Virus record (IMG/VR): IMGVR_UViG_3300046167_000252
Location: 1 to 34,538 of that record
Source of the DNA: a virus
Reading direction: 5' to 3' (one strand)
Length of the DNA stretch: 34,538 nucleotides
In this document: positions 1 to 18,817 of the stretch, one piece after another
Position numbering within the stretch: position 1 is the stretch's first letter
Layout: every line of letters begins with the position of its first letter
Program-made: the position numbers and the translations under genes
Notes under the pieces: generated by a model
Databases searched by the model: none
Told to the model about the DNA's origin: nothing
What the model saw: the letters and a program-made list of their open reading frames with translations, nothing else

Positions 1-40
1 CTGCTTGAACCTTATGAGGGTTGAACCCTGTTACTGTCAT
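1..40 (-). CDS. terL: Terminase large subunit, 5' end (first 13 codons)
   Basis: The ATG at 38-40 begins the N-terminus MTVTGFNPHKVQA. The reading frame leaves the window at position 1 with one base of codon 14. Appending the bases read from 34538 downward completes that codon as GAA and stays in frame into the Walker A region of the large terminase at 33361-34538. The start codon overlaps the stop of the small terminase gene (37-39) as ATGA, the usual coupling in this genome. This segment and 33361-34538 are therefore one 405-residue gene split by where the circular contig was opened. Confidence 0.9.
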   Translation of the reverse strand, partial: MTVTGFNPHKVQA

Positions 41-342
41 TCGTCTCTTTCATTGATTGGTGTACCAAACTCAAACTTAATGTTCTTGAATAAGTCTTTA
101 CCATCTGCACCTGTAACCTCTTGCCTCGCAAGTTTAGGAATCATATACTCACTTAACTTGAGCATCAAGTCCATCGCTCTCTCTGGATTCTCTGCTGCAA
201 CTTGCACAAGCCACTCGGTCATATTAGTGAGGTTATCCTCTACTAACTTTTGGTATGCATCTCTGATCTCGGCAGTAGTCTTGTTGGGTTTACCCTTTGG
301 TCTACCCTTTGGATTACTTACCTCTCCTTTCTTGAATCCCAT
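37..342 (-). CDS. terS: Putative terminase small subunit
   Basis: 101 residues. The N-terminus carries NPKGRPKGKPNKTT, the basic motif seen in many phage small terminases and DUF5681-type proteins, followed by helical sequence and YMIPKLARQEV near residues 66-76. Family knowledge: small terminases bind the packaging site on phage DNA and hand it to the large subunit. Its position directly before terL (ATGA overlap across the circular junction) supports this role. The start at 342 follows an AT-rich leader about 30 nt after the previous stop. An unrelated basic DNA-binding protein is the main alternative. Confidence 0.75.
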   Translation of the reverse strand: MGFKKGEVSNPKGRPKGKPNKTTAEIRDAYQKLVEDNLTNMTEWLVQVAAENPERAMDLMLKLSEYMIPKLARQEVTGADGKDLFKNIKFEFGTPINERDE

Positions 343-371
343 TATAAATCGTTATTGTTTATAATGTTAAC

Positions 372-608
372 CTACTCTTCCTTCTTGCGTTTAGCCTCTT
401 CCCTAAATAGCTTCTTGATTGCTTGGGTGTTAGCTCTACGAGCCTGTCGGTTCTCTCTTGTAGGAGCATCTGGTAGTTCTATGAAGTTCTTAACGAAGGC
501 TTGTTCATCTCTTGATAGTTGCCCTCTTAAGTGTATCTGTACTAACAACTCAAAGAGGTTGTTTAGGTTGTTCCTATTGATTAGGACATTTGCACTTTTA
601 CTTTCCAT
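372..608 (-). CDS. Hypothetical protein, 78 aa
   Basis: The ATG at 608 starts MESKSANVLI and overlaps the stop of the upstream gene as TAATG. An upstream in-frame ATG at 695 would create a long overlap and is less likely. The product is soluble and charged, helical in the middle (LNNLFELLVQIHLRGQLS), and ends in a strongly basic tail (KKLFREEAKRKKEE). It is the last gene before the terminase small subunit and is presumably cotranscribed with it. No family is recognised. Confidence 0.7.
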   Translation of the reverse strand: MESKSANVLINRNNLNNLFELLVQIHLRGQLSRDEQAFVKNFIELPDAPTRENRQARRANTQAIKKLFREEAKRKKEE

Positions 609-802
609 TACATTCTTATTAGTCGTAGTCTTCTTTGGTATTTGCGTATGAGTAGAGCGTTGTTGGTAATCGTGTCTTGCAACTCCGTAGTCCAACCGAA
701 TCTACTTGCCTGTATAGACAGGTTCACATTGTCAATCATTAGCATCTCCAGAAACTTCTGTAGTTCTCTAATGTGTTTTCTTTTTCGTAGTATCGTCTTC
801 AT
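608..802 (-). CDS. Hypothetical small basic protein, 64 aa
   Basis: Begins MKTILRKRKHIRELQKF and is rich in Arg and Lys at both ends, with a predicted helical centre. It overlaps the 42-residue membrane ORF upstream by 35 nt in another frame, and its stop overlaps the next start (TAATG). Tight packing and coupling support a real gene. Function is not recognised. Confidence 0.6.
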   Translation of the reverse strand: MKTILRKRKHIRELQKFLEMLMIDNVNLSIQASRFGWTTELQDTITNNALLIRKYQRRLRLIRM

Positions 803-896
803 ATCTTTTCAGTATTTTCTCTAACGCTTGGCAGCGAAGGTATTCCCTGCGCAACATATATAGTACCATTATGGTAACAAGGATTAGACTAATCAT
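768..896 (-). CDS. Small single-span membrane protein, 42 aa
   Basis: ATG at 896, stop TAG at 768-770. The N-terminus MISLILVTIMVLYML is one hydrophobic span, followed by a basic, charged C-terminal half ending TKKKTH. It overlaps the 19-codon ORF before it and the 64-residue gene after it. The hydrophobic-then-basic design suggests a small inner-membrane protein with a cytoplasmic tail. No homologue is recognised. Confidence 0.55.
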   Translation of the reverse strand: MISLILVTIMVLYMLRREYLRCQALEKILKRYEDDTTKKKTH

Positions 897-948
897 TCTC
901 TATACCGTTATCATCTAAATCTCGTAGACATAAATCTGTTATACTCAT
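889..948 (-). CDS. Possible 19-codon leader peptide
   Basis: The ATG at 948 sits directly behind the shared leader CTTTAACACCAAAGAGAG, which also precedes the 73-residue gene at 1270 in variant form. The ORF encodes MSITDLCLRDLDDNGIEND and ends at a TAG overlapping the ATG at 896. It lies just after the terminator at 970-1043. It may exist mainly to couple translation into the following genes, and chance occurrence cannot be excluded at this length. Confidence 0.4.
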   Translation of the reverse strand: MSITDLCLRDLDDNGIEND

Positions 949-966
949 CTCTCTTTGGTGTTAAAG
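949..966 (-). promoter_or_regulatory. Shared translation leader CTTTAACACCAAAGAGAG
   Basis: Read on the minus strand, these bases lie immediately before the ATG at 948. A close variant (ATTAACAACAAAGAGAG) precedes the ATG at 1270, and CTTTAACACCAAATAAAA precedes the ATG at 1435. Conservation with fixed spacing to the start codon suggests a ribosome-recruiting leader or an operator. AGAGAG is only a weak Shine-Dalgarno-like element. Confidence 0.45.
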
Positions 967-969
967 GTT

Positions 970-1043
970 AAAAAAAGACCCCATTAACTGCGTGTACCTT
1001 GCAGAACCTATGCGCCTTGTTCTTATGGGTAAGGGGTGGGGTC
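970..1043 (-). terminator. Terminator or structured RNA after the 73-aa gene
   Basis: On the minus strand a 7-bp stem GACCCCA / TGGGGTC closes a loop of about 53 nt and is followed by seven T (forward A run 970-976). It lies directly behind the stop of the gene at 1049-1270. The loop is much longer than in the other terminators here and holds a possible inner CTGC/GCAG hairpin, so a stable small RNA 3' end is an alternative. Confidence 0.6.
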
Positions 1044-1048
1044 ATCTC

Positions 1049-1270
1049 TTAATTATTAAAGGTTTGGTCAAATATTATTTTGATTTTTGGGTAGTCAATT
1101 AGACAACTACCCACATATTCTTCAGCAAACTCACACATCACCTCTTTCTCTTTCTCAAGCATTGATTCTGCCAACGCAATTATCTTATCATTGTACATAA
1201 AAGGCATTGCCTCATCATCTTCTTGACGCTTCTTGATTATCTCAATCAACTCTTGCATTGCTGTTTTCAT
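1049..1270 (-). CDS. Hypothetical acidic protein, 73 aa
   Basis: The product is a mostly helical, acidic protein (MQELIEIIKKRQEDDE at the N-terminus, AESMLEKEKEVMCEFAEEYVG in the middle, FDQTF near the end). Small proteins with an EKEKE...FAEEY...F layout are common in early regions of Bacteroidetes phages, but I know no function. The start follows a copy of the shared AACAAAGAGAG leader, and the gene is followed by the terminator at 970-1043. Confidence 0.65.
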   Translation of the reverse strand: MKTAMQELIEIIKKRQEDDEAMPFMYNDKIIALAESMLEKEKEVMCEFAEEYVGSCLIDYPKIKIIFDQTFNN

Positions 1271-1309
1271 CTCTCTTTGTTGTTAATGTTCTATTAAAGA
1301 CACAAAACC

Positions 1310-1435
1310 CTATCGTTCTGTATCATCTTTGGTCTCTAATTTCTCAAGCGTGTCCTTCAGTATCACATTCCAAGCCCACTTATCCTTGTCAGCGTTCCAA
1401 AGTTTCTCATACATCTCAAGTAATATCTCTCTCAT
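1310..1435 (-). CDS. Hypothetical protein, 41 aa
   Basis: ATG at 1435 (MREILLEMYEKLWNADKDKW), stop TAG at 1310-1312. It has the charged, helical, Trp-containing composition of a small soluble protein. The start follows CTTTAACACCAAATAAAA, a member of the leader family used nearby, which is the best evidence that it is translated. Function unknown. Confidence 0.55.
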   Translation of the reverse strand: MREILLEMYEKLWNADKDKWAWNVILKDTLEKLETKDDTER

Positions 1436-1505
1436 TTTTATTTGGTGTTAAAGTTTGCGCCTATTTTTTTATGTGTGCGCCTATTTTTCGTTGGTGTTAA
1501 AGGTC
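1436..1505 (-). repeat. Short direct repeats in the leader of the 41-aa gene
   Basis: Within 70 bases, AAAATAGGCGCA occurs twice and CTTTAACACCAA occurs twice on the minus strand, in the order leader, GCGC unit, GCGC unit, leader. The upstream leader copy overlaps the stop of the 46-residue gene. This may be a duplicated regulatory site or replication slippage. Confidence 0.6.
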
Positions 1506-1637
1506 GTGTTCTATGTTCTGTCTCTCAATATACCTGCGCCACATATTAGCAGCCCAAGCCTTTCTCTGCATCTTGTTAGGATACACCTTTCTTAACCTCG
1601 CATTTGCTATGCGTAGGAATTGTTCCATCTTGTTCAT
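1497..1637 (-). CDS. Hypothetical basic protein, 46 aa
   Basis: The ATG at 1637 overlaps the stop of the HNH gene as ATGA, and the stop is TAA at 1497-1499. The product MNKMEQFLRIANARLRKVYP... is rich in Arg, Lys and Trp (KAWAANMWRRYIER), suggesting nucleic acid contact or a partner protein of the HNH enzyme. No family is recognised. Coupling to a confident gene supports it. Confidence 0.6.
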   Translation of the reverse strand: MNKMEQFLRIANARLRKVYPNKMQRKAWAANMWRRYIERQNIEHDL

Positions 1638-1879
1638 AGTAATTTGTTGTGAATGGTTTGTAACATCTCTTTGTACTGTGGGTAATCACCATACTTGATA
1701 TGGCAAGGGCGGCAGACCGCCATAAGATTCTCTATGTGATCCTTTGACTTACTGCCTCCACTACCTCTATTGTCTATGTGGTGAATGTCGTTGGCTCGTG
1801 TCCCACAAACCTCACATCCTATGAAGTCATCTAACACATAGCCGAAGTAGTCCATATATATCTTGGTGTGCTTTTTCAC
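1634..1879 (-). CDS. HNH endonuclease domain protein
   Basis: 81 residues with the full HNH layout: C22xxC25, the DIHHID core at 31-36, N51, and C56xxCH at 56-60. Family knowledge: this fold nicks or cuts DNA using a metal held by the second His, with the two Cys pairs binding structural zinc. It overlaps the RecE-like exonuclease gene by 4 nt. Phage HNH proteins may act in packaging, recombination or as free homing enzymes. Its location away from terL, among recombination genes, fits DNA processing best. Confidence 0.85.
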   Translation of the reverse strand: MKKHTKIYMDYFGYVLDDFIGCEVCGTRANDIHHIDNRGSGGSKSKDHIENLMAVCRPCHIKYGDYPQYKEMLQTIHNKLL

Positions 1880-2685
1880 AACTCTCCGCTAATGGTATAG
1901 TTGTTAATCATTTCTTGTATCTCCTCCAGAGGTCTATTCTCAAAGAAGTCGTGGTATTGATTTAAAGCAAACATTACCTTCTCCTCTCCCTTGTTGAAGA
2001 ACTCCTCACTAACGGAGTAGACACCTACATCACACGAGAGTTTGTCTATGACCAAGAACTTAAACTTGGTATAGTCTACATTGAATAGTCGGCAGTATAG
2101 ATACACCTGTACATCGTAGGAGTATTTGTGTCTTGCTGAATACACAAAGTTGCGTAGGTCACTTGTAGTCTTGAGGTCAATGATAGTACCATCGTTCTTT
2201 ATGATGTCAGCCTTACCTCTAAAGGGATAGCCCTCTACATAGTCTACGGCAGGTACTTCAAAGGTAGAGTCTCGTAGTAGCTCTACTGCTTGGTGATTCT
2301 TGAACAAGGCTTCAGTCATACGCTCTGCAAGTTTACGCTCCTTTGTAGTGTAGAGTAAGTGGTTGGGGTGAATCTCTTTCGCCTCTTTCCATATCTTGGT
2401 ATTCTTACTTGCTACATTTATGAAGGTCATCTCGTTGATCTTATGAGGTTCTAATACCATTGTATGTATTAGTCTACCATCTCGTAGAGCTTGGCTATTG
2501 GTCTCCTCACCATACTGCATTAGATTGTAGTAGGTTCTTGGAGAGTCCAGAAGTTTCTTTAGGTTAGATGAACTGAACGCTACCTTACCGAGATAACCAT
2601 AGTAGAAGTCATCTTCAATAGCTTGTTCTACAAGCCATTCTTGAGAGTGTTGCTCACCATTGAGCATTGTGATTTGTTTTGACAT
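1876..2685 (-). CDS. PD-(D/E)XK exonuclease, RecE/DUF3799-like
   Basis: 269 residues. The nuclease core is visible: GRLIH at 70-74, GKAD with D160, IIDLKT at 168-173 (D170, K172) and the QxxxY element QVYLY at 193-197. This order is typical of RecE-type and lambda Exo-like nucleases, which resect duplex 5' ends for single-strand annealing. I see no annealing protein of the RecT or Red-beta type nearby, so the partner may be the SSB-like protein at 6809-7300 or a host factor. The start at 2685 lies 11 nt after the previous stop. Confidence 0.8.
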   Translation of the reverse strand: MSKQITMLNGEQHSQEWLVEQAIEDDFYYGYLGKVAFSSSNLKKLLDSPRTYYNLMQYGEETNSQALRDGRLIHTMVLEPHKINEMTFINVASKNTKIWKEAKEIHPNHLLYTTKERKLAERMTEALFKNHQAVELLRDSTFEVPAVDYVEGYPFRGKADIIKNDGTIIDLKTTSDLRNFVYSARHKYSYDVQVYLYCRLFNVDYTKFKFLVIDKLSCDVGVYSVSEEFFNKGEEKVMFALNQYHDFFENRPLEEIQEMINNYTISGEL

Positions 2686-2696
2686 AGTGGTTTTAT

Positions 2697-2942
2697 TTAT
2701 CGGGTTAATCCCATTGCTTGAATAAAGCGTTGACCCTTATCATAGTCAATGCCTTTAATGAGTCGGTAGATAAAGGCGGATGCCCTCTTGATAGATTCCA
2801 TCTCTGCCTTACTTGTCTCCTCTCCTGTATTGGCATACATCTGTGCATCTATGTGCAAGAGTTTGTCAATGCATTCTTTGTCGCTTAACGCTTCCTCAAA
2901 TATGATTTGAGCATCTAATATAGCTTTGCTATGTGTCATCAT
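2697..2942 (-). CDS. Hypothetical protein, 81 aa
   Basis: Soluble, mostly helical protein starting MMTHSKAILDAQ. Two adjacent ATG codons are available and the first overlaps the upstream stop as ATGA. It lies between a cysteine-rich small protein and the exonuclease in one operon. No motif is recognised. Confidence 0.65.
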   Translation of the reverse strand: MMTHSKAILDAQIIFEEALSDKECIDKLLHIDAQMYANTGEETSKAEMESIKRASAFIYRLIKGIDYDKGQRFIQAMGLTR

Positions 2943-3121
2943 TTCTGGTAGTCTATTTGTCGTGTGATTATTTGCTCTTCGTCATCGCATACGCAACTCT
3001 CCTTCTCACAATCGTGGCAACAGTTACATACCCAACTATCGTCACAATACTCATAGCAGATGTCACATTGCCTTGCTTGATCCTCTTGGTACGAAGCTAA
3101 CTCTCTATCTAAATAGTACAT
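2939..3121 (-). CDS. Cysteine-rich putative zinc-binding protein, 60 aa
   Basis: Nine cysteines in 60 residues, arranged as CxxCxxxC, then CxCCxxC and CxC in the central segment (CDICYEYC, VCNCCHDC, ESCVC). The spacing suggests one or two zinc-binding knuckles. It follows the small membrane protein with a TAATG overlap. A role in protein or nucleic acid contact is plausible but not shown. Confidence 0.65.
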   Translation of the reverse strand: MYYLDRELASYQEDQARQCDICYEYCDDSWVCNCCHDCEKESCVCDDEEQIITRQIDYQK

Positions 3122-3240
3122 TATATTCTCTCTATTAGTTCGTAGATAAATAGAAAGAACGCTATGCCTATAGCAGAAGCGATGAATAGTGTGCCTCCGT
3201 ACAGGAGGTCTTCTTTAAGGGTGTAGATTTTCTTTGACAT
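3121..3240 (-). CDS. Small membrane protein, 39 aa
   Basis: ATG at 3240, stop TAA overlapping the next start. After a charged start (MSKKIYTLKED) there is one hydrophobic span, GTLFIASAIGIAFFLFIY, and a short polar end. It is the first gene behind the promoter motif at 3260-3282, which makes it likely that the message is translated from here. Function unknown; a superinfection or host-envelope role is only a guess. Confidence 0.6.
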   Translation of the reverse strand: MSKKIYTLKEDLLYGGTLFIASAIGIAFFLFIYELIERI

Positions 3241-3259
3241 AATAATTTTGGTTTCTGCT

Positions 3260-3282
3260 AATATACACAAATAAGTTAACAA
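3260..3282 (-). promoter_or_regulatory. Putative phage promoter P1
   Basis: Minus-strand elements TTGTTAA and TGTGTATATT lie at the ends of a 23-bp unit ending 19 nt before the ATG at 3240. The same unit recurs at 9356-9378 and 32625-32647 with the same distance to a first gene. It differs from the usual Bacteroidetes TAnnTTTG box, which suggests recognition by the phage sigma-like protein at 4376-4912. Confidence 0.65.
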
Positions 3283-3283
3283 T

Positions 3284-3814
3284 CTACATAGGGATAGAAA
3301 TTTCTTGAAAGATTATGTCTTGCACATCCTCTATCCTCAAGTATGTAAACACATCCTGCTTACCGAATCTACCTATCCATTTGTACAAACCCTGTGAAGG
3401 TTTCACCCTATTCTTTCTGGTAACATTCTCTTGGGCAAATTCATCACACAACTCTATAGCCTTCAACCTCAACTTGTCCTTCTCCATCACATAGAACCTA
3501 TCGGGAAACTGAAAGGCGATGTACTCTGCTTTAGAATCTTTAGCACACCATCCGTGATAGCCCCACACATTAAGAAACTCCAGAAGAATGAATCCGTGCT
3601 TATGCATCGGCTTGAGTCCCTTGACATCTACGAGCTTATCACCCCAATAGAAATCAATGTGCTTCTTGTCATCTTCAAGTTCGGACTTGACTGCTCCTGT
3701 AAGAGCCTTGAACAACTCCTCACCATCCTTACCTATAGATATGCAATGGTCAGTTCTTTCATCGGATTGATTCAATCCTTTCTTGAGATATGTGTTTAGG
3801 CTATCGGAACTCAT
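3284..3814 (-). CDS. Putative PD-(D/E)XK-type nuclease
   Basis: 176 residues. GKDGEELF at 29-35, then HIDFYWGDKLVDVKG at 52-66, give an acidic residue, D54 and D63-V-K65, the spacing of a PD-(D/E)XK core with strand-turn-strand geometry. Family knowledge: such proteins include restriction enzymes, resolvases and exonucleases. The basic C-terminal half (VTRKNRVKPSQGLYKWIGRFGKQ) could bind DNA. The gene ends the replication operon, just before promoter P1. The assignment rests on a short motif only. Confidence 0.5.
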   Translation of the reverse strand: MSSDSLNTYLKKGLNQSDERTDHCISIGKDGEELFKALTGAVKSELEDDKKHIDFYWGDKLVDVKGLKPMHKHGFILLEFLNVWGYHGWCAKDSKAEYIAFQFPDRFYVMEKDKLRLKAIELCDEFAQENVTRKNRVKPSQGLYKWIGRFGKQDVFTYLRIEDVQDIIFQEISIPM

Positions 3815-4034
3815 TAAGGTCTGTGTCTTTTAGTTTCTTGTCCCCATCATAGAATGAGAACCTGTTATGTGTATACTCTACACGAAAGCCTCCGTAAGAG
3901 CCACTAACATCAAACTTGTACTCGTCTTTACCGTGTAATGTTGTGATGCCTTCAGCCTCTTTGTATTCCTTGATCTTATGACCTTGAGTCCATAGGTATA
4001 CAAGTAGGAGTTTACTAACCTTCGTATTCTCCAT
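3801..4034 (-). CDS. Hypothetical protein, 77 aa
   Basis: The start MENTKVSKLLLVYLW at 4034 is preferred over the upstream ATGs at 4055 and 4069, which lengthen the overlap with the previous gene. The C-terminal half is rich in Tyr, Phe and Gly and looks like beta strands (YKFDVSGSYGGFRVEYTHNRFSFYDGDKK). No family is recognised. It overlaps both neighbours slightly, as expected for a coupled operon. Confidence 0.6.
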   Translation of the reverse strand: MENTKVSKLLLVYLWTQGHKIKEYKEAEGITTLHGKDEYKFDVSGSYGGFRVEYTHNRFSFYDGDKKLKDTDLNEFR

Positions 4035-4440
4035 ATATCTTCTTGAGGTCTGCAATATGTGTTGACCATTCTCTCGGATTACAAGAACAAGGAATGTAAT
4101 ACTTGTGTTGGAATACTCTTGAGTGTATCCTGCTCAATGGCTCTTGGTACATCTCTTTAACCTCTCTACCATTAAAGTCATTAAAGAACTGCTTAAGGGT
4201 CGTGTACTCACCTTCTTCCAGACACAATGGTTGTGTTCTTCTTGGGAACAACTTATTGAGCTTTGCCTTACGAGCATCACACCCACAATCAATTCCTGTA
4301 AGTTCAGCAAAGGTGTCTACTACTTTCTTAATTCCTGTAGCCTTTGTGATTTTCTCAATGTCATCTCCTAAACCTTTAGATTCTTTCGCTTTCACCGTTT
4401 TGGTAGTCTTCGTAGTCTTCGTTGATTTTTTCTTGGACAT
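4015..4440 (-). CDS. Conserved-type phage protein with DCGCDARK motif, 141 aa
   Basis: The start MSKKKSTKTT at 4440 gives a Lys/Thr-rich, low-complexity, basic N-terminus, then GLGDDIEKITKATGIKKVV and the motif GIDCGCDARKAKLNKLFP. I have a general memory of this GDxIEKxTKATGIK...DCGCxxRK layout in Bacteroidetes phages, but no function is known to me. Cysteines here and in IPCSCNPREW near the end could bind metal. It overlaps the sigma-like gene by 65 nt. Confidence 0.6.
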   Translation of the reverse strand: MSKKKSTKTTKTTKTVKAKESKGLGDDIEKITKATGIKKVVDTFAELTGIDCGCDARKAKLNKLFPRRTQPLCLEEGEYTTLKQFFNDFNGREVKEMYQEPLSRIHSRVFQHKYYIPCSCNPREWSTHIADLKKIYGEYEG

Positions 4441-4912
4441 ATTCTTTAGAGTTTTTAAGTGTATCAAATATGGAGAATAGGCTAATGCCTGTTTCCTTTT
4501 CTATGTCTCTCATTGACATATCGGTTTTGTGGTATACCTCAAACATCTTTTGGTCATACCAATGAAGGTCTTCCATAACCTCCCAAACCTTGTCTATTAA
4601 CTTCTCAAAGCCTTCTGCTTGTACTCGGTCAAACTCTTCCTCTGCAACATCGTACTCAACCATATCGCCTGTGTATACCATTAAGTCTTTCTTGTTCTGG
4701 AACTGCCTCGTCATATTACGAAGGGTTACCCACACAAAGAGCTTGTTGGGTTGGTTCTTGTACATAATGCGTTCTGGGTTCTCTACATACTTATTGAGTC
4801 GTATGTACATCTCTTGCACTATGTCTTCGGCATAGCTACCTGCACCGAACTTGTGAACCATCTTGATCCATTCCTTATGATGTCCTGCAAGAAGGTCTAA
4901 TACTGTTATCAT
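4376..4912 (-). CDS. Sigma-70-like RNA polymerase sigma factor
   Basis: 178 residues. The N-terminal part resembles sigma region 2 (HHKEWIKMVHKFG, then AEDIVQEMYIRLNKYV at 28-43). The C-terminal part holds a helix-turn-helix like region 4 (MFEVYHKTDMSMRDIEKETGISLFSIF, residues 123-149). The two-domain ECF-like size fits. Family knowledge: such factors bind host RNA polymerase and direct it to cognate promoters. The genome also carries three copies of a non-standard promoter-like motif, which makes this the obvious candidate reader. A purely DNA-binding regulator is the main alternative. Confidence 0.7.
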   Translation of the reverse strand: MITVLDLLAGHHKEWIKMVHKFGAGSYAEDIVQEMYIRLNKYVENPERIMYKNQPNKLFVWVTLRNMTRQFQNKKDLMVYTGDMVEYDVAEEEFDRVQAEGFEKLIDKVWEVMEDLHWYDQKMFEVYHKTDMSMRDIEKETGISLFSIFDTLKNSKEYVQEKINEDYEDYQNGESERI

Positions 4913-5070
4913 TGTTCAGTTGACCAAGTGACTACTAAAGCAAAAATCCCAAAGCACAACTGCAAAGAGTGGTACTTGGGATTCTCAAAGTCATCATTCA
5001 TAGTGGAGTCCCAATAGTTAACACCTATTAGAATCCCTGCAAGGGGTGCTATGTCAATCGCAAAGTTCAT
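4909..5070 (-). CDS. Small membrane protein, 53 aa
   Basis: ATG at 5070, stop TGA overlapping the sigma start as ATGA. Two hydrophobic stretches (FAIDIAPLAGILIGVNYW and LQLCFGIFALVVTW) are separated by an acidic loop, giving a hairpin topology. It overlaps the end of the DnaA-like gene by 17 nt, and it accounts for what would otherwise be an empty 140-bp gap. Function unknown. Confidence 0.6.
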   Translation of the reverse strand: MNFAIDIAPLAGILIGVNYWDSTMNDDFENPKYHSLQLCFGIFALVVTWSTEQ

Positions 5071-5494
5071 TTTGAGTAGCAAGTTTATTTAGTTCTTGCT
5101 CCATAATATACAACTTTTCACGAGTTATTGACAGTTCTTCACGAGTTTTTTGTAAACGCTCGGTTAGTAAGGCATTCTGCTTGGTCAGTCCCCAATCCAT
5201 TCCTTCCTCCTGTGAGCCTCGTAGCTTGTCCATAATCGTACAACATTGGTTGAAGAACTGCATATAGTCCCTATCAAACTTTAGGTTCATCTCGTGTCCT
5301 TTAGTTGCGTGTATGATAGTAGCGTGATTCTTCTTACATACTCGTGCGATCTCAAGTGTTGTGTACAAGTCTCTTGCTGCTACCATAAATGCAAACCTTG
5401 CCATAACATTCCTACGCTCTCTGGAGGGTGAGATTCTATGGTGTCCTGTATAGTTATCGTACTCCTCTTGTAATTGTAATATCGTTGCTCTCAT
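5054..5494 (-). CDS. DnaA domain IV-like DNA-binding protein
   Basis: 146 residues. SRERRNVMARFAFMVAARDLYTTLEIARVCKKNHATIIHATK (residues 24-65) matches the layout of the DnaA C-terminal DNA-binding domain: a basic helix, then the helix-turn-helix whose recognition helix carries NHATIIHA, compared with DHSTVxHA in DnaA. The AAA+ domain is missing. The C-terminal 50 residues form a probable coiled coil. Context (helicase and SSB-like genes just upstream) suggests an origin-binding or helicase-loading role. It could also bind host DnaA boxes as a regulator. Confidence 0.65.
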   Translation of the reverse strand: MRATILQLQEEYDNYTGHHRISPSRERRNVMARFAFMVAARDLYTTLEIARVCKKNHATIIHATKGHEMNLKFDRDYMQFFNQCCTIMDKLRGSQEEGMDWGLTKQNALLTERLQKTREELSITREKLYIMEQELNKLATQNELCD

Positions 5495-5829
5495 TTTAAG
5501 TGTTCGTTAAGGTTATCAAATCGTTCTTCGTAAGCGTTTATCTTTCTTGTTAGGTTTCGTATCGTTAGCTTGAGGTCAGCGTTCTTTGCTTCTGCCTCCC
5601 ATACCATCTGCTGAACATCCTCTACCATACCTATGGAGGCATCTATAGCAGAGTAGATACTAATGAGGTCAATGAATATATCCATCTCATACTCATTGCT
5701 TGGGTCTTGAGGTTTAAGAGCATTGGCAATCTGCATCAAGTCTTGATTCTTTTGTCTTAACCATAAGAGGGCTATGCTCTTGCTACCGCCTCTTACCCAT
5801 CCGTAATCTTCTTGTTTTAATTCATCCAT
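5491..5829 (-). CDS. Hypothetical coiled-coil protein, 112 aa
   Basis: Helical throughout. The last 40 residues (NADLKLTIRNLTRKINAYEERFDNLNEHLK) look like a coiled coil, as does the end of the next gene product. It sits between helicase and DnaA-like genes, 1 nt after the helicase stop and overlapping the next start. A role as helicase loader or adaptor is suggested by position only. No family is recognised. Confidence 0.6.
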   Translation of the reverse strand: MDELKQEDYGWVRGGSKSIALLWLRQKNQDLMQIANALKPQDPSNEYEMDIFIDLISIYSAIDASIGMVEDVQQMVWEAEAKNADLKLTIRNLTRKINAYEERFDNLNEHLK

Positions 5830-5830
5830 A

Positions 5831-6751
5831 TTAAAAAGGTAAATCGCTTTGTTTCTTTTCTTTCTTGGTGATTAGATTCTCACCGTGTATCTCAAAACCT
5901 ACATTGTTAGGTACACTTCTAAATCTTACAGGCTCATCTAATGGTGTAGGTCTTCCTCCTGTCTCCACCTCTTTCACCTTGCGTATGTGTACTTGGTTGT
6001 ACATCCATTCGGTAGGGTGTTGAATATAACGATGTATCACTACAAAGTCATCAGCCCTGTTAACGAACTTACCACCGCCCTCAATATCTGCTGCGCTTGG
6101 TGGCATAGGGTGACCTGCGTACTCGTGTCCTGCGGAGTGCTTCATTCTTAAAGCATTAGTTACTGCGTGAGCATTAAGCCAGATACTTACATCGTGTTGC
6201 TTTGCCCAATTCCTAAAGTGTGTACTTACCTCATAGTCGTACTCGTGACCGCCAAGTGTTTTAAACATCTCTTTGTCCTTCGTTAACGAGTTGTAAGGAT
6301 CAATCAAGAATCCATCAAAGCCTTCTTCGTGGTAGATGTCTGTAGCCTCCTCAATTAAATCCTTGTAGGTGTACATCTTCTTATCGGTGTCAATGATAAC
6401 AAAATATCTTTGAACTAAATCAAGAGCCATCTGGAACTCATCTTCATCTATCTTATTTATGGGTTTACCCAAGAAGAACTCCGAGAGCTTCTTTGCGATA
6501 GATACAGGTGTGTTCTCGGAACTGAATACAAGCCACTTAATATCGTTGACTATGGTTTGCAATAACATTAGGTACAACATCACGGAGGTCTTACCAACAT
6601 TTGCGTGTCCTAACACTACATTGAAATTACCTCGCTTGAAGCGGAGGTGGTCATCTAAATTCCATTGCCCGAACTTGAGACCTTCTTTAACTTTGCCCAT
6701 TCGGACATCGTCAAGTTTACCGAACACATCGGCATAAGATATTTTTGACAT
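5831..6751 (-). CDS. Replicative helicase-like RecA-fold ATPase (DnaB family)
   Basis: 306 residues from the ATG at 6751 (MSKISYADVF). The longer reading from 6781 would run through a terminator hairpin. Walker A GHANVGKTS is at 48-56, Walker B FLIDPYNSL at 148-156, and WLNAHAVTN follows, as in DnaB and T7 gp4-type motors. There is no N-terminal primase or DnaB N-domain, so this is a bare motor domain. The C-terminus ends KKQSDLPF, resembling the acidic-hydrophobic tip of SSB proteins, which is unusual for a helicase. The first gene after the terminator at 6767-6792, it heads the replication genes. Confidence 0.8.
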   Translation of the reverse strand: MSKISYADVFGKLDDVRMGKVKEGLKFGQWNLDDHLRFKRGNFNVVLGHANVGKTSVMLYLMLLQTIVNDIKWLVFSSENTPVSIAKKLSEFFLGKPINKIDEDEFQMALDLVQRYFVIIDTDKKMYTYKDLIEEATDIYHEEGFDGFLIDPYNSLTKDKEMFKTLGGHEYDYEVSTHFRNWAKQHDVSIWLNAHAVTNALRMKHSAGHEYAGHPMPPSAADIEGGGKFVNRADDFVVIHRYIQHPTEWMYNQVHIRKVKEVETGGRPTPLDEPVRFRSVPNNVGFEIHGENLITKKEKKQSDLPF

Positions 6752-6766
6752 AGTTGGTTTTAAGTT

Positions 6767-6792
6767 AAAAAGGGAGCGCAAGTGCGCCCCCC
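6767..6792 (-). terminator. Terminator after the SSB-like gene
   Basis: A 9-bp GC-rich stem (GGGGGCGCA / TGCGCTCCC on the minus strand, one G-T pair) with a 2-nt centre is followed by five T. It lies between the SSB-like stop at 6809 and the helicase start at 6751. It probably attenuates rather than blocks transcription, since no promoter motif copy follows it. Confidence 0.8.
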
Positions 6793-6808
6793 TAATATAG
6801 TTCTTTCT

Positions 6809-7300
6809 TTAGAATGGCAAACCATCCGCTACAGGTTGAGGTTCTTCTCTACCTTGAAAGTGTTGCTGATGAGTCGCTTGGGCTTGGGCTGCGCCCTTCT
6901 TCATAACCCAATCAGCAAAGAGTTGAGCATTCGCAATAACTACTTGCGGTGTTCCACCAATCTCGGCTGCTGCCTTGAGAGCCGTTTGGCGAATGATTGA
7001 TTCGTCTTTAGAGGTATGTGTACCACTTGGAGCAGATGTGCCAGAGGGTGCTACATTTGCGTATTGTGGGTTAACAGGCTTGACCGTGTAGTAGGTCTTA
7101 CCATTGTACTCTCTTGGGATGTAATCGTAAGTAGCCTCTTGTCCTACTGCAAACTTTGTTTGGTTCGGGTCTTTGGAGTTGTACTTACCATTATCTCCAT
7201 TTTCAAATGTTACATAGAACCCATAAAGTGTTCCATACTGACCGTTGTACGGCTCTCCTGCGGACTTAATGTCCTTGACAATAGATGTTTTAGTCATCAT
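6809..7300 (-). CDS. SSB-like single-stranded DNA-binding protein
   Basis: 163 residues. The N-terminal 85 residues look like an OB-fold beta barrel (GTLYGFYVTFENGDNGKYNS, then TYDYIPREYNGKTYYTVKPV). A Ser/Gly/Thr linker follows, then a helical segment and a Gln/His-rich tail ending in VADGLPF, like the C-terminal tip by which SSBs recruit partners. Family knowledge: such proteins coat single-stranded DNA at forks. The match to classic SSB is weak, so a gp2.5-type functional analogue is equally possible. It is followed by a terminator, consistent with high expression. Confidence 0.6.
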   Translation of the reverse strand: MMTKTSIVKDIKSAGEPYNGQYGTLYGFYVTFENGDNGKYNSKDPNQTKFAVGQEATYDYIPREYNGKTYYTVKPVNPQYANVAPSGTSAPSGTHTSKDESIIRQTALKAAAEIGGTPQVVIANAQLFADWVMKKGAAQAQATHQQHFQGREEPQPVADGLPF

Positions 7301-7338
7301 ATATAATTTAGTTAATGATTCAAAGTTAATAAAAATGT

Positions 7339-8469
7339 TTACTGCTCAAACATTGGATGTAGTTTTTCTGCTATCGCTTGTACTACATCAACAGTTACTG
7401 CGTTGCCACATTGCTTGTAGCGTTGGGTGTTGCTCATCTCCTTGATCTCTCCATCGTAAATACCTTTGGAGGTGTGGTTATCTGGAAATCCCTGTAGCCT
7501 CTCACACTCTATAGGAGTAAGCCTACGAATGCGGTAGTCTTGTATAGCTGCTTGATTGCAAGATGTCTCAAGTGTTTGAGCTTTAGCTTTCCCTACTCTT
7601 CCTCTACGAGTCTCGCTATTAGGATTGGATAGGTTTATGCTATCTCCTTCCGTAGCTTTCTCATATCCTGCTTTGGTAGCTGACTTTACTTTAATTACAG
7701 GTTGACCACTACCATCCTCTCTTGCTCGTGCAGGAATTGTAGGACAATCACCTCCTTTAACTTCCCTAAATCCTTGACCATCTTTATGAGTTCTCCAAGT
7801 ACCTATTTTGAATTTTTCCGCAGACTGTTTATTTGTAATAAGGAATGACCCGTTTGAGTCTGCTGTGTATCTACAAGTAAGGGTTTTACTGACTTGTCGC
7901 TGTATTCCATCATTCGGTTGATTGTCTTCTCGGATAGGTAATACTCCTCCTTCATTTCCTCTGGCTTCTGCAAGATATCCGACAAGGTATATCCGCTCTC
8001 TATTTTGGGGTAAAAACCAACTTGTATTAAGCAGTTGCCACTCAAGTCTATAACCCCCAATGTTGGCAAAGGCTTGGATAATTGCCCAAAAGTCTGCGCC
8101 ATTGTTTGAGGAGAATGTTCCTTTAACATTTTCCCAGATAAATACACGAGGTCTGCACTCGTGAATGAGTCTAATTGCTTCCGTGATAAGAGAACTTCTT
8201 TCTCCCCCCATCCCTTTTCTTTTTCCAGCCAATGAGAAATCTTGGCAAGGACTTCCGAAAGTGATGAGGTCAATTCTTGGGAGGTCTGCTCCCCGAACAT
8301 CTGTAACTGATCCGACATAGGTGCTATCTTTAAATTGGTGTTGGTATACCGCTACTGCGTGTTTATCTACTTCCGAGAAGTAACTGTTGACCTTAAACCC
8401 TGCTCTCTCAAATCCCAAATGGAATCCTCCAATACCAGAGAATAAGTCTAATTGGTTAATCTCTTTCAT
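7339..8469 (-). CDS. DNA (cytosine-5) methyltransferase
   Basis: 376 residues with all key m5C motifs in order: DLFSGIGGF (motif I, 8-16), GSPCQ with catalytic Cys75 (motif IV), ENV at 113-115 (motif VI), QNRERIY at 155-161 (motif VIII) and QCGNAV near 353-358 (motif X). The target recognition domain between VIII and IX is about 160 residues. No restriction partner lies nearby, so this is probably an orphan phage enzyme protecting DNA from host restriction. A 171-codon ORF in another frame overlaps residues 51-222 and is discussed as a finding. The recognition sequence cannot be read from the protein. Confidence 0.93.
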   Translation of the reverse strand: MKEINQLDLFSGIGGFHLGFERAGFKVNSYFSEVDKHAVAVYQHQFKDSTYVGSVTDVRGADLPRIDLITFGSPCQDFSLAGKRKGMGGERSSLITEAIRLIHECRPRVFIWENVKGTFSSNNGADFWAIIQAFANIGGYRLEWQLLNTSWFLPQNRERIYLVGYLAEARGNEGGVLPIREDNQPNDGIQRQVSKTLTCRYTADSNGSFLITNKQSAEKFKIGTWRTHKDGQGFREVKGGDCPTIPARAREDGSGQPVIKVKSATKAGYEKATEGDSINLSNPNSETRRGRVGKAKAQTLETSCNQAAIQDYRIRRLTPIECERLQGFPDNHTSKGIYDGEIKEMSNTQRYKQCGNAVTVDVVQAIAEKLHPMFEQ

Positions 8470-8822
8470 AACTTTAGTCTAACCTCAACTTCACAATAAT
8501 TCTTTTCAACGCTCTCGTCAAAAGTGATAGTGAGCCTGTGATAGTATTTAGGACTATCGTCTGCAATCCATCCGTTAGCAACGAGAGTATCAGCAGTAAA
8601 TTTTGAAACAAGAACAAGATTGTCCACATCGGCACGAGTATTGTACCTAATATGGATAGACATACTCTCTGCAAAATGGTGGTCATAACGAGCCAATTCT
8701 GCTTCAACGATTTTTTTATATTCATCTTTTGTTTTTTTTCTAAATGTCCAATGCTTACCTGCGTAGAGTGAGTTAAGACTTATCGTCTTCGGTAGCGTGA
8801 GGGAGAGCGTTAATTCGTTCAT
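8466..8822 (-). CDS. RusA-like Holliday junction resolvase
   Basis: 118 residues. An N-terminal LTLPKTISLNSLY segment, a basic FRKKTKDEYKK helix and the acidic core RADVDNL (65-69) with ADDS at 87-90 match the RusA layout, in which aspartates bind metal at the dimer interface and cut four-way junctions. Family knowledge: phage RusA proteins resolve recombination or replication intermediates before packaging. It overlaps the methyltransferase start as ATGA and the DUF3310-like gene by 50 nt. Confidence 0.7.
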   Translation of the reverse strand: MNELTLSLTLPKTISLNSLYAGKHWTFRKKTKDEYKKIVEAELARYDHHFAESMSIHIRYNTRADVDNLVLVSKFTADTLVANGWIADDSPKYYHRLTITFDESVEKNYCEVEVRLKL

Positions 8823-9042
8823 ATTCCAATTCTTTTTCTAAATGGTGAATAGCCTTTAAGATGTCTTGTGCTTTAGGATTGTCTTTCTTCTTACCTGCTC
8901 GTAGCAAGTAAGCGATAGCTACCCCCATATTGTAAGAGTCTCTTGCGAAGTCCATACACACATCAAAAGCCTCAATGCCTTTGTACTTACCTAAATAGTA
9001 ACTTGGTGTCAACCTCTGGCTTGTGGTACTTGGAGAGGGCAT
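8773..9042 (-). CDS. DUF3310-like protein
   Basis: The segment SYYLGKYKGIEAFDVCMDFARDS and then GVAIAYLLRAGKKKDNPKAQDILKAIHHLEKELE has the layout of DUF3310 phage proteins (Y..GIE.fDv, then YLLRAGKK...KA..hLek). Their function is uncertain; they are often annotated near nucleotide metabolism genes. The start is unclear. ATG at 9042 keeps the overlap with the previous gene to 56 nt, while ATGs at 9075 and 9132 overlap more and add low-complexity Ser/Thr sequence. A TTG at 9012 is also possible. Confidence 0.6.
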   Translation of the reverse strand: MPSPSTTSQRLTPSYYLGKYKGIEAFDVCMDFARDSYNMGVAIAYLLRAGKKKDNPKAQDILKAIHHLEKELEYERINALPHATEDDKS

Positions 9043-9178
9043 TGCCGTTGAATCGTTTGAAGAGTCTTCTGTCATCGGGAAATCCGAAGTGTAGGTAGAA
9101 GTGGTCTTGTAAGGTTTGTTCGTTGATTTCATATTGTTCTGGGTATTCAGTTTGCTTAATTTTTACTACGGTCTTCAT
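8987..9178 (-). CDS. Hypothetical protein, 63 aa
   Basis: The ATG at 9178 (MKTVVKIKQTEYPEQYEIN) gives a compact protein with likely beta strands, then a helix (LQDHFYLHFGF) and a basic end. It overlaps the 59-residue gene before it by 23 nt and the DUF3310-like gene after it in another frame. No family is recognised. Confidence 0.55.
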   Translation of the reverse strand: MKTVVKIKQTEYPEQYEINEQTLQDHFYLHFGFPDDRRLFKRFNGNALSKYHKPEVDTKLLFR

Positions 9179-9335
9179 TGATCTTGTATGCTTTAAACAT
9201 ATCCATAACGGTTTCTGCATTTATGCCCTTACGAGCATAGTCTCTAATGATAAACATTTTTAGGTGGTTCATCTCTTTGGTGAGAGCTTCAACTCGTGCC
9301 TCGCACAAGTTCAAGTATTGGTCTTTTATATCCAT
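9156..9335 (-). CDS. Hypothetical early protein, 59 aa
   Basis: ATG at 9335, 20 nt after promoter motif P2, stop TAA at 9156-9158. The product MDIKDQYLNLCEARVEALTKEM... is helical with a possible short coiled coil, then RDYARKGINAETVMDMFKAY. It is the first gene of the replication operon, so very early expression is likely. No homologue is recognised. Confidence 0.65.
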   Translation of the reverse strand: MDIKDQYLNLCEARVEALTKEMNHLKMFIIRDYARKGINAETVMDMFKAYKINEDRSKN

Positions 9336-9355
9336 AGTTGTTTTGATTTGTTACG

Positions 9356-9378
9356 AATGTACACAAATTTATTTACAA
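9356..9378 (-). promoter_or_regulatory. Putative phage promoter P2
   Basis: Second copy of the 23-bp unit, with TTGTAAA and TGTGTACATT as its conserved ends on the minus strand, 20 nt before the ATG at 9335. It also contains TAAATTTG, a match to the Bacteroidetes TAnnTTTG box, so host RNA polymerase might read this copy early. It lies between the terminator at 9393-9416 and the first replication-operon gene. Confidence 0.7.
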
Positions 9379-9392
9379 CCAACATAGAGAGC

Positions 9393-9416
9393 AAAAAAAA
9401 AGAGGCGGATGCCTCT
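9393..9416 (-). terminator. Terminator upstream of P2
   Basis: The minus-strand hairpin AGAGGCATCCGCCTCT (9401-9416) is followed by a run of nine T. It stops anything entering from the A/T spacer before promoter P2 starts the replication operon. Confidence 0.85.
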
Positions 9417-9536
9417 ATATATAAATATATCTATATCTCTATATATATATAATAAGAGACCTATAGGTCTCTATATATTACTATATATTATAACTACTAT
9501 ATATAATATCTCTATATATAATATATATATATATAT
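9417..9536. other. A/T spacer, possible origin region
   Basis: About 120 bases consist almost only of A and T, with scattered TCTC/GAGA and TATATA repeats. There is no coding potential. The spacer sits between the end of the lysis module and the start of the replication operon and is bracketed by terminators. An easily melted region beside replication genes is what a phage origin or unwinding element often looks like. No iterons or DnaA boxes could be recognised, so the role is unproven. Confidence 0.5.
9455..9472. repeat. Perfect 18-bp palindrome in the A/T spacer
   Basis: AGAGACCTATAGGTCTCT is a perfect inverted repeat with no loop in the middle of the A/T spacer. It may bind a dimeric protein or extrude as a cruciform. 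It has no adjacent T run, so it is not a standard terminator. Confidence 0.8.
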
Positions 9537-9565
9537 AAAAAAAAAGAAAGGTGGGATAACCCACC
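9537..9565 (-). terminator. Terminator of the lysis module
   Basis: The hairpin GGTGGGTTATCCCACC (9550-9565, 6-bp stem, 4-nt loop) is followed by TTTC and nine T on the minus strand, 29 nt after the holin-like stop. It is probably the end of the long late transcript. Confidence 0.9.
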
Positions 9566-9593
9566 AAACTTAAACACTATATGTTATCAACGA

Positions 9594-9959
9594 TTATTTA
9601 ACATTACCTCTCTTGTCAAGTGAGCGTACTGCGAAGTAACCTCCTACAACTGTTACACTTAACATATTCCATAGACTTATCCAAGCAGGGTCTACCTGTA
9701 GGTAGCCCAACCCATCAAAGAAAGTAGTAACTACCAGAAAGCTAATCACTACAATCAAGGTTAGTGGTCTTACATTCTTGCTTAACCAAGAGTCCGATGT
9801 CATATCGGATTTCCACCTACTGCTAATCTCGGACTCAATAGAAGCCTTTAGAGCGGCTTTCTCCTCTGGAGTTGATACATACCTATCTACGACATTAGAA
9901 ACGGCTTCTATCGTCTCCTGTGCGCTTTTTCCGAGTAGTTTTGTTATTAGTGGATTCAT
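9594..9959 (-). CDS. Holin-like protein (3TM phage holin type)
   Basis: 121 residues from the ATG at 9959 (MNPLITKLLGKS). The longer frame from 10028 overlaps the 41-residue gene and is unlikely. After a soluble helical half comes SWLSKNVRPLTLIVVISFLVVTTFF and then WISLWNMLSVTVVGGYFAVRSLDK. The RP-led first span and GGYFxxRSLDK end are typical of the 3TM holin family found in gene transfer agents and marine phages. Family knowledge: such proteins permeabilise the inner membrane to release endolysin. The position at the end of the lysis cluster supports this. Confidence 0.75.
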   Translation of the reverse strand: MNPLITKLLGKSAQETIEAVSNVVDRYVSTPEEKAALKASIESEISSRWKSDMTSDSWLSKNVRPLTLIVVISFLVVTTFFDGLGYLQVDPAWISLWNMLSVTVVGGYFAVRSLDKRGNVK

Positions 9960-10006
9960 TACAATTCTTTTTACAGGTACATTCCTTTGGTTGAGTAGAG
10001 CAATAC

Positions 10007-10132
10007 TTAACTGCCACAAGCCTCGCAATCTGGGTTATCAATGTTACAGGCTTTCTCGTTAGCCTTGTCATTAGTCATCTCATCTACAAAGTCCTCAAAG
10101 GAGTCTGCAAACCCGAAGTCGGTGTCGTTCAT
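10007..10132 (-). CDS. Hypothetical acidic protein, 41 aa
   Basis: ATG at 10132 overlapping the previous stop as TAATG, stop TAA at 10007-10009. Very acidic (MNDTDFGFADSFEDFVDEMTND) with three Cys near the end (ACNIDNPDCEACGS), perhaps for metal or disulfide. Exact fit between spanin-like and holin-like genes supports translation. Function unknown. Confidence 0.6.
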   Translation of the reverse strand: MNDTDFGFADSFEDFVDEMTNDKANEKACNIDNPDCEACGS

Positions 10133-10431
10133 TAACCTCTTTTTATTATATCAATTTCACGCTGCAAATATCTGTTCTCGGTCTCAAGCTCCGCTACCTT
10201 TTGCGTAAGTCTTAAGATTTCTCCTTGTGCAGTTTCAAGGCTTGTACTCATCTCATTCACTCGCTTCAGCAAGTCATCTCTAAACATAGTCTCTGGATTA
10301 TCGGCTCTCTCTTCCTTTCGCAACTCTCGTGCCGAATCCTTCTTGGTCTTAATGACCATCTCATAAAACTTAAATGCTGCTCCGCTACCCAAGATCGTAA
10401 CAAGTGCAATAATCAGCTCTTTGCTTTCCAT
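10132..10431 (-). CDS. Membrane-anchored coiled-coil protein, spanin-like
   Basis: 99 residues. One N-terminal span (LIIALVTILGSGAAFKFYEMV), then a charged linker and a long coiled coil (LLKRVNEMSTSLETAQGEILRL through ETENRYLQREIDIIKRG). An inner-membrane anchor with a periplasmic coiled coil is the design of i-spanins, but many phage lysis accessory proteins share it. I see no outer-membrane lipoprotein partner. It overlaps the four-span membrane gene and the 41-residue gene. Confidence 0.55.
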   Translation of the reverse strand: MESKELIIALVTILGSGAAFKFYEMVIKTKKDSARELRKEERADNPETMFRDDLLKRVNEMSTSLETAQGEILRLTQKVAELETENRYLQREIDIIKRG

Positions 10432-10796
10432 TGTTTAGTAACTCTTATTTGATTTATAACTGCTGCAAACGCAATGATTAACCAACCAAAGCGTGAAGGG
10501 GCTTCCCATAAAAGCCCTGTCATCATATACTGCTCAACCGTTAAGAAGGCTACAATCGTAGCTATAACTGTTGAATAGTATCTACATCGTAGGTCTCGCA
10601 TACCTACACTATAGAATTGAAATAATCCTCCGCCTATGGCTATAAAGATTATATGCCACTTAAACCCTATCTCTGCCCATACCGCAGCAGGTAAGAGTAA
10701 GGTGTGTAGCACCGCTATAAGTAACTCTAAAAACTCACTATCGGCAAAGCCTATAATAGTCTTGAGGTTCTTTTTGATTAGTTTAAAGTTTACCAT
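10413..10796 (-). CDS. Four-span membrane protein, possible holin
   Basis: 127 residues. Hydrophobic segments lie near 23-42, 47-64, 76-95 and 103-119, with basic ends (NFKLIKKNLKK and VTKQWKAKS) that would both face the cytoplasm. It lies directly after the endolysin gene (7-nt overlap). It may be a holin, an antiholin of the 3TM protein at 9594-9959, or an unrelated membrane protein. Confidence 0.55.
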   Translation of the reverse strand: MVNFKLIKKNLKTIIGFADSEFLELLIAVLHTLLLPAAVWAEIGFKWHIIFIAIGGGLFQFYSVGMRDLRCRYYSTVIATIVAFLTVEQYMMTGLLWEAPSRFGWLIIAFAAVINQIRVTKQWKAKS

Positions 10797-11245
10797 TTCG
10801 TGTATCGTGTCTTTCCGTTATCCTTATACGCTACGAGTACCTCGCCTCTATTACCCTCTTCTTTGTACGAACAATGTACCCAAGCATACTCACCCATATT
10901 ATCGGGGAACTCACCTATGAGTTGGTCAAAGGTTAAGTGATCTTTGATATACATAAAGAGTTCACGATTCGTGTACCCTCCTGTAGACTGCATATCCAAT
11001 GCTTCACCCTTTGAATGTTGTGAGTTGTTAGAACCTCCTATGGCTTTATTCAACTCCTTTGACCGATAGCCAGAGGTAACTCTTAAAGGCTTTCCAAAAT
11101 GTTCTCGGCAAGGCTGAAAGATATTGTTGGCTACTGCCTTCAAATTGATTAAGTGAGATACTGTTGGCTCGTTTGCAATCCCCTTGCGTAAAGCAGTCGC
11201 AGAGTATGTCACTTCTGCAAGGCTCAAATTCTCCGTTAGCTTCAT
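10790..11245 (-). CDS. Endolysin, peptidase M15 family
   Basis: 151 residues. The zinc-site motif SQHSKGEALDM (H77, D84) and the later WVHCSY (H124) match M15 D-Ala-D-Ala carboxypeptidases and endopeptidases, and VTSGYRSKELNKAIGG is the usual segment before it. Family knowledge: it would cut the peptide stems of host peptidoglycan. There is no signal peptide, so export needs a holin, and two candidates lie just downstream. Length is normal for a single-domain phage enzyme. Confidence 0.88.
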   Translation of the reverse strand: MKLTENLSLAEVTYSATALRKGIANEPTVSHLINLKAVANNIFQPCREHFGKPLRVTSGYRSKELNKAIGGSNNSQHSKGEALDMQSTGGYTNRELFMYIKDHLTFDQLIGEFPDNMGEYAWVHCSYKEEGNRGEVLVAYKDNGKTRYTKW

Positions 11246-11397
11246 TCTTCATCTGTCAAATAAACACTTCCTACACCTTGCGCTCTTACAGAGCCATCAC
11301 AACAGTCTATTGAGTATGTTGAAGTCTCCCAACATAGGCAACCTCGCCTCCCCCCTTTAGGGGAGGTACGAGAAGGTATGTAGTTAGGGTCTTGCAT
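11242..11397 (-). CDS. Cysteine-rich small protein, 51 aa
   Basis: ATG at 11397 (TAATG with the upstream stop), TGA overlapping the endolysin start as ATGA. MQDPNYIPSRTSPKGGRRGCLC then STYSIDCCDGSVRAQGVG. Four Cys and a Gly-rich centre. The fit between two confident genes and the composition make it a convincing small gene. Role unknown; it may be a minor virion protein, since similar short CLC...CC proteins sit beside phage fibre genes in my memory. Confidence 0.7.
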   Translation of the reverse strand: MQDPNYIPSRTSPKGGRRGCLCWETSTYSIDCCDGSVRAQGVGSVYLTDEE

Positions 11398-11783: not shown

Positions 11784-11785
11784 AG

Positions 11786-13519: not shown

Positions 13520-13522
13520 ATC

Positions 13523-18711: not shown

Positions 18712-18735
18712 ACCAAGAGGTATAAGTGTTATATC

Positions 18736-18767: not shown

Positions 18768-18817
18768 AACCAAACCAAAACACCTATGTCAAGTGCCGTT
18801 GCTAATATACTACTTTC

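Follow-up and report, generated by a model that had tools for sequence, protein, structure and literature searches.

Phage-encoded sigma factors for late transcription are well known, with gp55 of T4 and gp28 and gp34 of SPO1 as examples. Transcription control in phages of Bacteroidota has apparently been little studied, and the literature searched contained no mapped promoters of phages infecting members of this phylum. On the host side, the sigma-A promoters of F. psychrophilum consist of a -33 element TTTG/TTG and a -7 element TAnnTTTG (SM1-SM3, SM5), with a variant TAnnTTGY represented by SM5 (PMC9723704).

The DNA analysed here (the window) is a single IMG/VR virus record, IMGVR_UViG_3300046167_000252, of 34,538 bp. 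The main genes are all encoded by the minus strand; the gene for the large terminase subunit is found at the right end and one resembling that for the small subunit at the left end, a gene order like that of circularly permuted tailed phages. The window is presumably a marine flavobacterial phage, and the group to which it is related consists of uncultured marine flavobacterial phages. The nearest isolates are the Nonlabens phages P12024S and P12024L (Inhavirus), with a major capsid protein (MCP) 35% identical; megablast against phage records and an Rfam search both returned no match. More than 150 related loci were gathered by MCP- and sigma-based searches and used for comparison.

A previous inspection of the window (the sequence-only reading) had described three 23-bp units sharing TTGTWAA and TGTGTAYATT at constant spacing, 19-22 nt before the first ATG of a gene unit. 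All three were recovered, all on the minus (coding) strand: TTGTTAACTTATTTGTGTATATT (3282-3260), TTGTAAATAAATTTGTGTACATT (9378-9356) and TTGTTAAAAATAATGTGTATATT (32647-32625). The ATGs at 3240, 9335 and 32602 follow at distances of 19, 20 and 22 nt, respectively. No further copy with up to three mismatches is present in the window (mean in dinucleotide shuffles, 0.03). The half-motif TGTGTAYATT with one mismatch occurs 11 times in the window against 7.7 expected, that is, at chance level, so that the signal resides in the two-part unit. The features around the three sites, referred to below as P1, P2 and P3, are as follows.

3258-3265, minus strand: putative -7 box of P1, TATATTAG, one mismatch to TAnnTTTG; L291 and L264 have a perfect TATATTTG there
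3260-3282, minus strand: P1, putative early-promoter core (spacer TTGTTAACTTATTTGTG plus TATATT), before the 39-aa ORF at 3240
3284-3288, minus strand: -33-like element of P1, TGTAG, overlapping the stop codon of the upstream ORF 3814-3284
9354-9361, minus strand: putative -7 box of P2, TACATTCG, one mismatch to TAnnTTTG, from the sequence
9356-9378, minus strand: P2, 23-nt putative early-promoter core, before the replication module (ORF 9335 onward, including the sigma-like gene)
9380-9384, minus strand: -33-like element of P2, TGTTG, from column counts over 59 distinct sites
9401-9416, minus strand: intrinsic terminator directly upstream of P2, AGAGGCATCCGCCTCT plus a T run
32364-32380, minus strand: terminator GCCCCTCTTCGGAGGGG-T ending the P3 cassette; an identical hairpin ends the cassettes of L125 and L262
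32396-32602, minus strand: P3 cassette gene, an ORF of 67-68 aa
32623-32630, minus strand: putative -7 box of P3, TATATTGC, fitting the TAnnTTGY variant (SM5 of PMC9723704)
32625-32647, minus strand: P3, 23-nt putative early-promoter core of an inserted gene cassette, from the sequence and from empty junctions in relatives

A matrix scan of the relatives gave 29 strong sites, and Markov controls gave none above an equal score. Over 817 kb of clade sequence, 87 copies were found in sense and none in antisense orientation (reversed-pattern control, 2), and for 78 of the 87 an ATG is no more than 40 nt away. The motif is followed by the start codon after 19-26 nt, consistent with short leaders. 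In dozens of contigs the P2 site precedes the sigma-like gene by 3.3-5.6 kb and the P1 site follows it by 1.3-1.8 kb; where different genes open a unit, the 23-bp site precedes those genes. In one relative (L106), a GCCCCTC..GAGGGG terminator replaces the upstream half of P2, and the -7 half remains. Among 299 genomes from the order presumed to include the host, only one contained the motif, at a phage-bearing contig end. The strand bias, the proximity to ATGs and the near-absence from host genomes thus bear out the earlier description of the motif as promoter-like, phage-specific and heading transcription units. One end of a Crocinitomicaceae MAG contig (L205, 1-170) is phage-like over about 150 nt, contains a P1 site and abuts a histidine-kinase gene. 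A host assignment from this contig was rejected, because a chimera and an integration junction are indistinguishable over an end of this length.

The sequence-only reading had taken the short distance between the two elements as a sign that the promoter is not of the sigma-70 type. The comparison of sites does not support this. In 59 distinct sites, with the TA set at -12, a TGT-G block lies directly upstream of the motif at -35 to -31 (T in 53, G in 50, T in 50 and G in 38 of the 59), and TTG proper is present in part of the sites. An exact TATATTTG occupies the -7 position in L264, L291, L295, L299, L300 and L332, of which L291 and L332 fit TTG-N17/18-TAnnTTTG completely, and sister phages with a 30-34% identical sigma have canonical TTG-N18/19-TAnnTTTG before unit-first genes. 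Because of this -33 block, the exact -7 boxes and the canonical forms of the sister phages, TTGTWAA is probably to be regarded as the spacer of a Bacteroidota-type promoter and not as its upstream box. The full early promoter looks like TGTTG/TTG near -33, 17-18 nt, and then TAYATTnG. Two of the three units had been said to lack TAnnTTTG; in fact, none of the three has an exact box, the sequences being TATATTAG, TACATTCG and TATATTGC, the first two each one base off. At the -33 position, P3 reads TTAGG. The classical sigma-70 arrangement (TTGACA/TATAAT, 16-18 nt apart) gave no hit at 3260 or 9356 in a scan of positions 1-20000, a range that covers P1 and P2 and contained 43 hits in total against 53.1 in shuffles.

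P2 would start a replication and regulation operon carrying an ECF-like sigma gene, and P1 a second early unit that encodes a RecE-like nuclease and an HNH protein besides small genes. P3 belongs to an inserted promoter-gene-terminator cassette: an extra block of this kind is present in the window, in L125 and in L262 between the 33383-32778 gene and the putative late promoter at 32351 (see below), and the junction is empty in at least seven relatives (L004, L025, L048, L119, L135, L285 and L315). The cassette gene had no family match at the thresholds used. In L127, three such promoters stand in tandem, with one small ORF each.

Three further observations concern the genes of these regions. 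A 146-aa ORF in the replication module (5054-5494) has a DnaA C-terminal-like HTH (Pfam Bac_DnaA_C, E 7e-6) and is a possible candidate initiator. Four imperfect copies of a 27-nt repeat (1429-1455, 1478-1504, 942-968 and 1264-1290), reading CTTTAACACCAAA..ATG on the minus strand, are located at or near the starts of small genes. A 201-aa ORF in the 33383-32650 region (minus strand) stops at 32778, and a conserved -1 frame continues (ending in WGWYGSVDHLAGGDASRYDSITNLPLRQCLTKLVYDKEKADVEKKMLKH and a stop). Extensions homologous to this frame beyond 32778 are present in most relatives, and a programmed -1 frameshift of the kind seen in genes for tail assembly chaperones is probable.

The spacer of the early promoter is more conserved than expected for the host enzyme. 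Its elements TGTWAA and TTTTGTK occur in none of 153 host TAnnTTTG sites; this and the single match among 299 genomes rule out a general host promoter, and sigma-A alone is therefore insufficient to explain the conservation. We infer a role in promoter strength or as an operator. As an operator, the 22 bp from -29 to -8 would be bound by a phage-made dimeric repressor or another regulator, which would shut off or tune early units and cassettes jointly. This is rather doubtful, although the spacer is common to all units of a genome, exceeds the needs of sigma-A and in P2 is dyad-symmetric about position 11.5, where 0.68 of the pairs are complementary (average over centres 0.31, sd 0.11). In P1 and P3 the value at centre 11.5 is 0.48 and is not the best one; a dyad operator for every site was rejected, only P2 being clearly symmetric, and the only clade-wide HTH proteins found are the sigma and the DnaA-C-like protein. 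An XRE protein was found only in G017 and no HigA-like protein in the phage loci, and a phage XRE/HigA repressor was rejected on these grounds. A DnaA box was also considered, given the resemblance of TGTGTATAT to TGTGNAWAA and the DnaA-C-like protein at 5054-5494, and was rejected, the required G being T in 21 of the 59 sites.

The phage pattern had 64 exact matches in the genome collection, most of which are a single host element before a HigA-like gene: a near-perfect palindrome, ATGTAAACAAATTTGTTTACAT, that overlaps a TAYATTTG box 3-4 nt before the gene. This operator-promoter is conserved in L161, L165, L158 and about 40 other Bacteroidota loci, and its layout suggests that the host HigA-like genes are leaderless and autoregulated, of antitoxin type. 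One idea is that the phage spacer is, or mimics, the operator of a host HigA-like XRE regulator, tying phage early transcription to an antitoxin-type repressor of the host; between the P2 site of L289 (ATGTAAACAATTTTGTGTACATTCG) and some of the host copies there are 2 differences in 25 positions. We consider this very unlikely: the phage pattern itself retrieved the host sites, so that the likeness is partly selected, and P1 sites fit the palindrome poorly.

The sigma-like gene of the P2 operon and the sites that we regard as its probable targets are listed here.

4376-4912, minus strand: predicted ECF-like sigma factor gene, 178 aa, from profile matches, an AlphaFold2 model and fold searches
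366-391, minus strand: putative late promoter, AACGC-N14-GGTTAAC, before the terminase small subunit (ORF 342-37)
15965-15990, minus strand: late-promoter-like AACGC-N14-GGTTAAC, before a 104-aa gene (15924), inside the end of the upstream ORF
18705-18730, minus strand: putative late promoter, AACAC-N14-GGTTAAC, duplicate copy within a 3,009-bp duplicated stretch
21714-21739, minus strand: putative late promoter, AACAC-N14-GGTTAAC, before a 110-aa gene (ORF 21708) adjoining the portal; kept in nearly all close relatives
32326-32351, minus strand: putative late promoter, AACAC-N14-GGTTAAC, before a 154-aa gene (ORF 32320)

The protein encoded at 4912-4376 matches Pfam Sigma70_r2 weakly, below the cut-off, and eight of nine family members do match this family. 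Its profile had the ECF factor SigL as best match in the PDB (E 0.014). The AlphaFold2 model (pLDDT 85.5, pTM 0.45) has two domains, and Foldseek placed ECF sigmas (SigL, sigma-E) at the top of its matches (E 2e-4). Region 4 superposes on region 4 of sigma-E bound to -35 DNA (2h27) with an rmsd of 1.9 angstrom over 69 residues; superposition of the whole structure is poor because the two domains float. As in ECF sigmas, sigma-70 regions 2 and 4 are the only ones found, region 2 being sub-threshold in Pfam. The protein is therefore likely a two-domain ECF-type sigma, with its function predicted from the model. A tblastn search with the protein against phage records gave no match, and in PHROG it matches a single family, to which no function is assigned.

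The sequence-only reading had described the 23-bp unit and missed a second motif, AACRC-N14-GGTTAAC. Five exact copies are present in the window, all on the coding strand at late genes, against 0.28 expected with one mismatch allowed; clade-wide, there are 58 sense and no antisense copies (control, 3). Of 49 distinct contexts, 22 have a distance of 16 nt from AAC to GGTTAAC, and no other spacing occurs more than three times. There is thus an AAC box at a fixed distance from a conserved downstream box, as in ECF-type promoters, whose geometry AAC-N18-TTAA presumably resembles. We consider this late motif a likelier target of the sigma-like protein than the 23-bp motif. The copy at 18705-18730 belongs to a tandem duplication of the portal and its neighbours (16347-19355 and 19356-22364). 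The near-identical relatives L118 and L130 have two late sites 2,740 bp apart and do not have the extra copy; the duplication is therefore likely an assembly artefact.

GGTTAAC might instead be a translation or mRNA element, the sigma-like protein having another role. Several copies stand 6 nt before an ATG, and Shine-Dalgarno sequences are reported not to be used in the Bacteroidota phylum (PMC6847099). Yet the distance from GGTTAAC to the ATG varies (6, 24 and about 41 nt) while that from AAC to GGTTAAC is fixed, so that a promoter fits better than a translation signal; in addition, some copies come after terminators, and the element varies between sigma clades. A translation element is accordingly unlikely.

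That variation follows the sigma. Each clade with a divergent sigma has its own pre-ATG element common to its late genes: GGGTTTTWTAATTA in G020, CGTTATTTA in G026, AGTTAYTTATATATG in G016, TTATTGTATATAT in G030 and CGTTAATA in P12024S. In this comparison of a handful of clades, the similarity of late elements is 10.9/14 within genomes and 7.3 between clades, the orthologous 110-aa gene included. Among the loci of the wide sigma search, AAC-N16-GGTTAAC appears only where the sigma is at least 58% identical. P12024S encodes a distant homologue (24%, E 9e-10), the sigma-region-2 gene gp33, and contains eight copies of AAAC-N17-SGTTAATA against 1.03 expected, most of them before annotated rightward genes; these sites are a candidate late regulon of gp33. 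Copies in this genome (L221) are located at 146-174, 2998-3026, 5379-5407, 23928-23956, 25168-25196 and 26769-26797.

A loose link between the 23-nt motif and the sigma clade may exist. The motif is mostly found in loci with a sigma at least 57% identical, and where the sigma is no more than 48% identical it is missing from the majority of loci; related sites are present in L317 (sigma 42%) and L332 (39%). The sequence-only reading had assigned the 23-bp units to a dedicated regulon of the sigma-like protein, with TTGTWAA as the upstream and TGTGTAYATT as the downstream box. Motif and sigma do co-occur in genomes, motif-bearing close relatives that hold the replication region have a sigma at least 73% identical, and the motif is still present in relatives with a sigma of 57-59%. 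Against this, the element centres are about 16 bp apart, short for a region 2/region 4 pair by general knowledge, forms with a perfect sigma-A -7 box exist, and L317 and L332 retain related sites in spite of their divergent sigmas. The motif would also drive the very operon that encodes the sigma, and the late motif is a better fit. This assignment appears quite improbable.

Since P2 would drive the operon holding the sigma-like gene, the host enzyme presumably has to be able to read P2. The motif heads this sigma-encoding replication unit, a second early unit and the cassettes, a distribution that points to an early promoter used by the host polymerase. In our preferred reading, to which we assign a probability of roughly 0.68, the 23-bp unit is an early promoter read by host sigma-A, and the phage sigma more likely serves the AACRC-N14-GGTTAAC late class; the early and late timing is a proposal. 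Host RNA polymerase with its primary sigma-A would read early promoters of the P1/P2 type, and the sigma made from the P2 operon would direct the polymerase to AACRC-N14-GGTTAAC before terminase, head and tail genes. Points against this reading are the imperfect -7 boxes of the window, the absence of the spacer elements from host sites, the possible loose link of the motif to the sigma clade, the position of the window sigma below the Pfam cut-off and the poor superposition of its whole structure.

More tentatively, a two-tier programme might operate throughout this widespread phage group. An early promoter with a phage-specific, operator-like spacer would be common to the core early units and to plug-in cassettes and would be under the control of a regulator, and an ECF-like sigma, with a co-diverged -10-like element, would turn on the late genes. 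From sequence alone, two promoter classes are obtained, together with a likely ECF-like late sigma role for an ORF to which its PHROG match assigns no function. The late element changes from one divergent-sigma clade to the next, which makes the group a natural test set for DNA recognition by ECF sigmas. The early promoters might supply parts for expression tools in flavobacteria.

Compared with Bacteroidota sigma-A promoters, the early sites have a -7 box with at most one mismatch in P1 and P2 and exact in some relatives, a -33-like TGTTG/TTG 17-18 nt off, and a distance to the start codon that fits short leaders; they differ in the strongly conserved spacer DTGTWAAnnAnTTTTGTK. With the HigA-like XRE operator-promoters they share ATGTAAAC..TTTGTTTAYATTTG overlapping the sigma-A -7 box in the same register, but the host palindrome is perfect and its leader 3-4 nt long, whereas the phage sites are imperfect and have leaders of 19-26 nt. 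The Nonlabens phages P12024S and P12024L resemble the window in their MCP (35% identity), in gp33 and in having their own repeated CGTTAATA before rightward genes; they differ in that no 23-nt motif was seen in them and that a leftward unit has the canonical sigma-A form, TTG-N18-TATATTTG.

The likeness to ECF (group IV) sigmas such as E. coli sigma-E and M. tuberculosis SigL lies in the two-domain fold, in a region 4 that superposes on 2h27, and in candidate promoters that combine an upstream AAC box with a short downstream box at a constant distance. Unlike these, the window protein falls below the Pfam cut-off, is phage-borne and has no anti-sigma found with it, and the downstream box GGTTAAC is unlike typical ECF boxes. 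As with T4 gp55 and SPO1 gp28/gp34, the sigma gene is in a presumed early operon and its candidate targets stand before late genes; in contrast to them, the predicted sigma is ECF-like, belongs to phages of Bacteroidota, and is accompanied by a promoter element that varies by phage clade.
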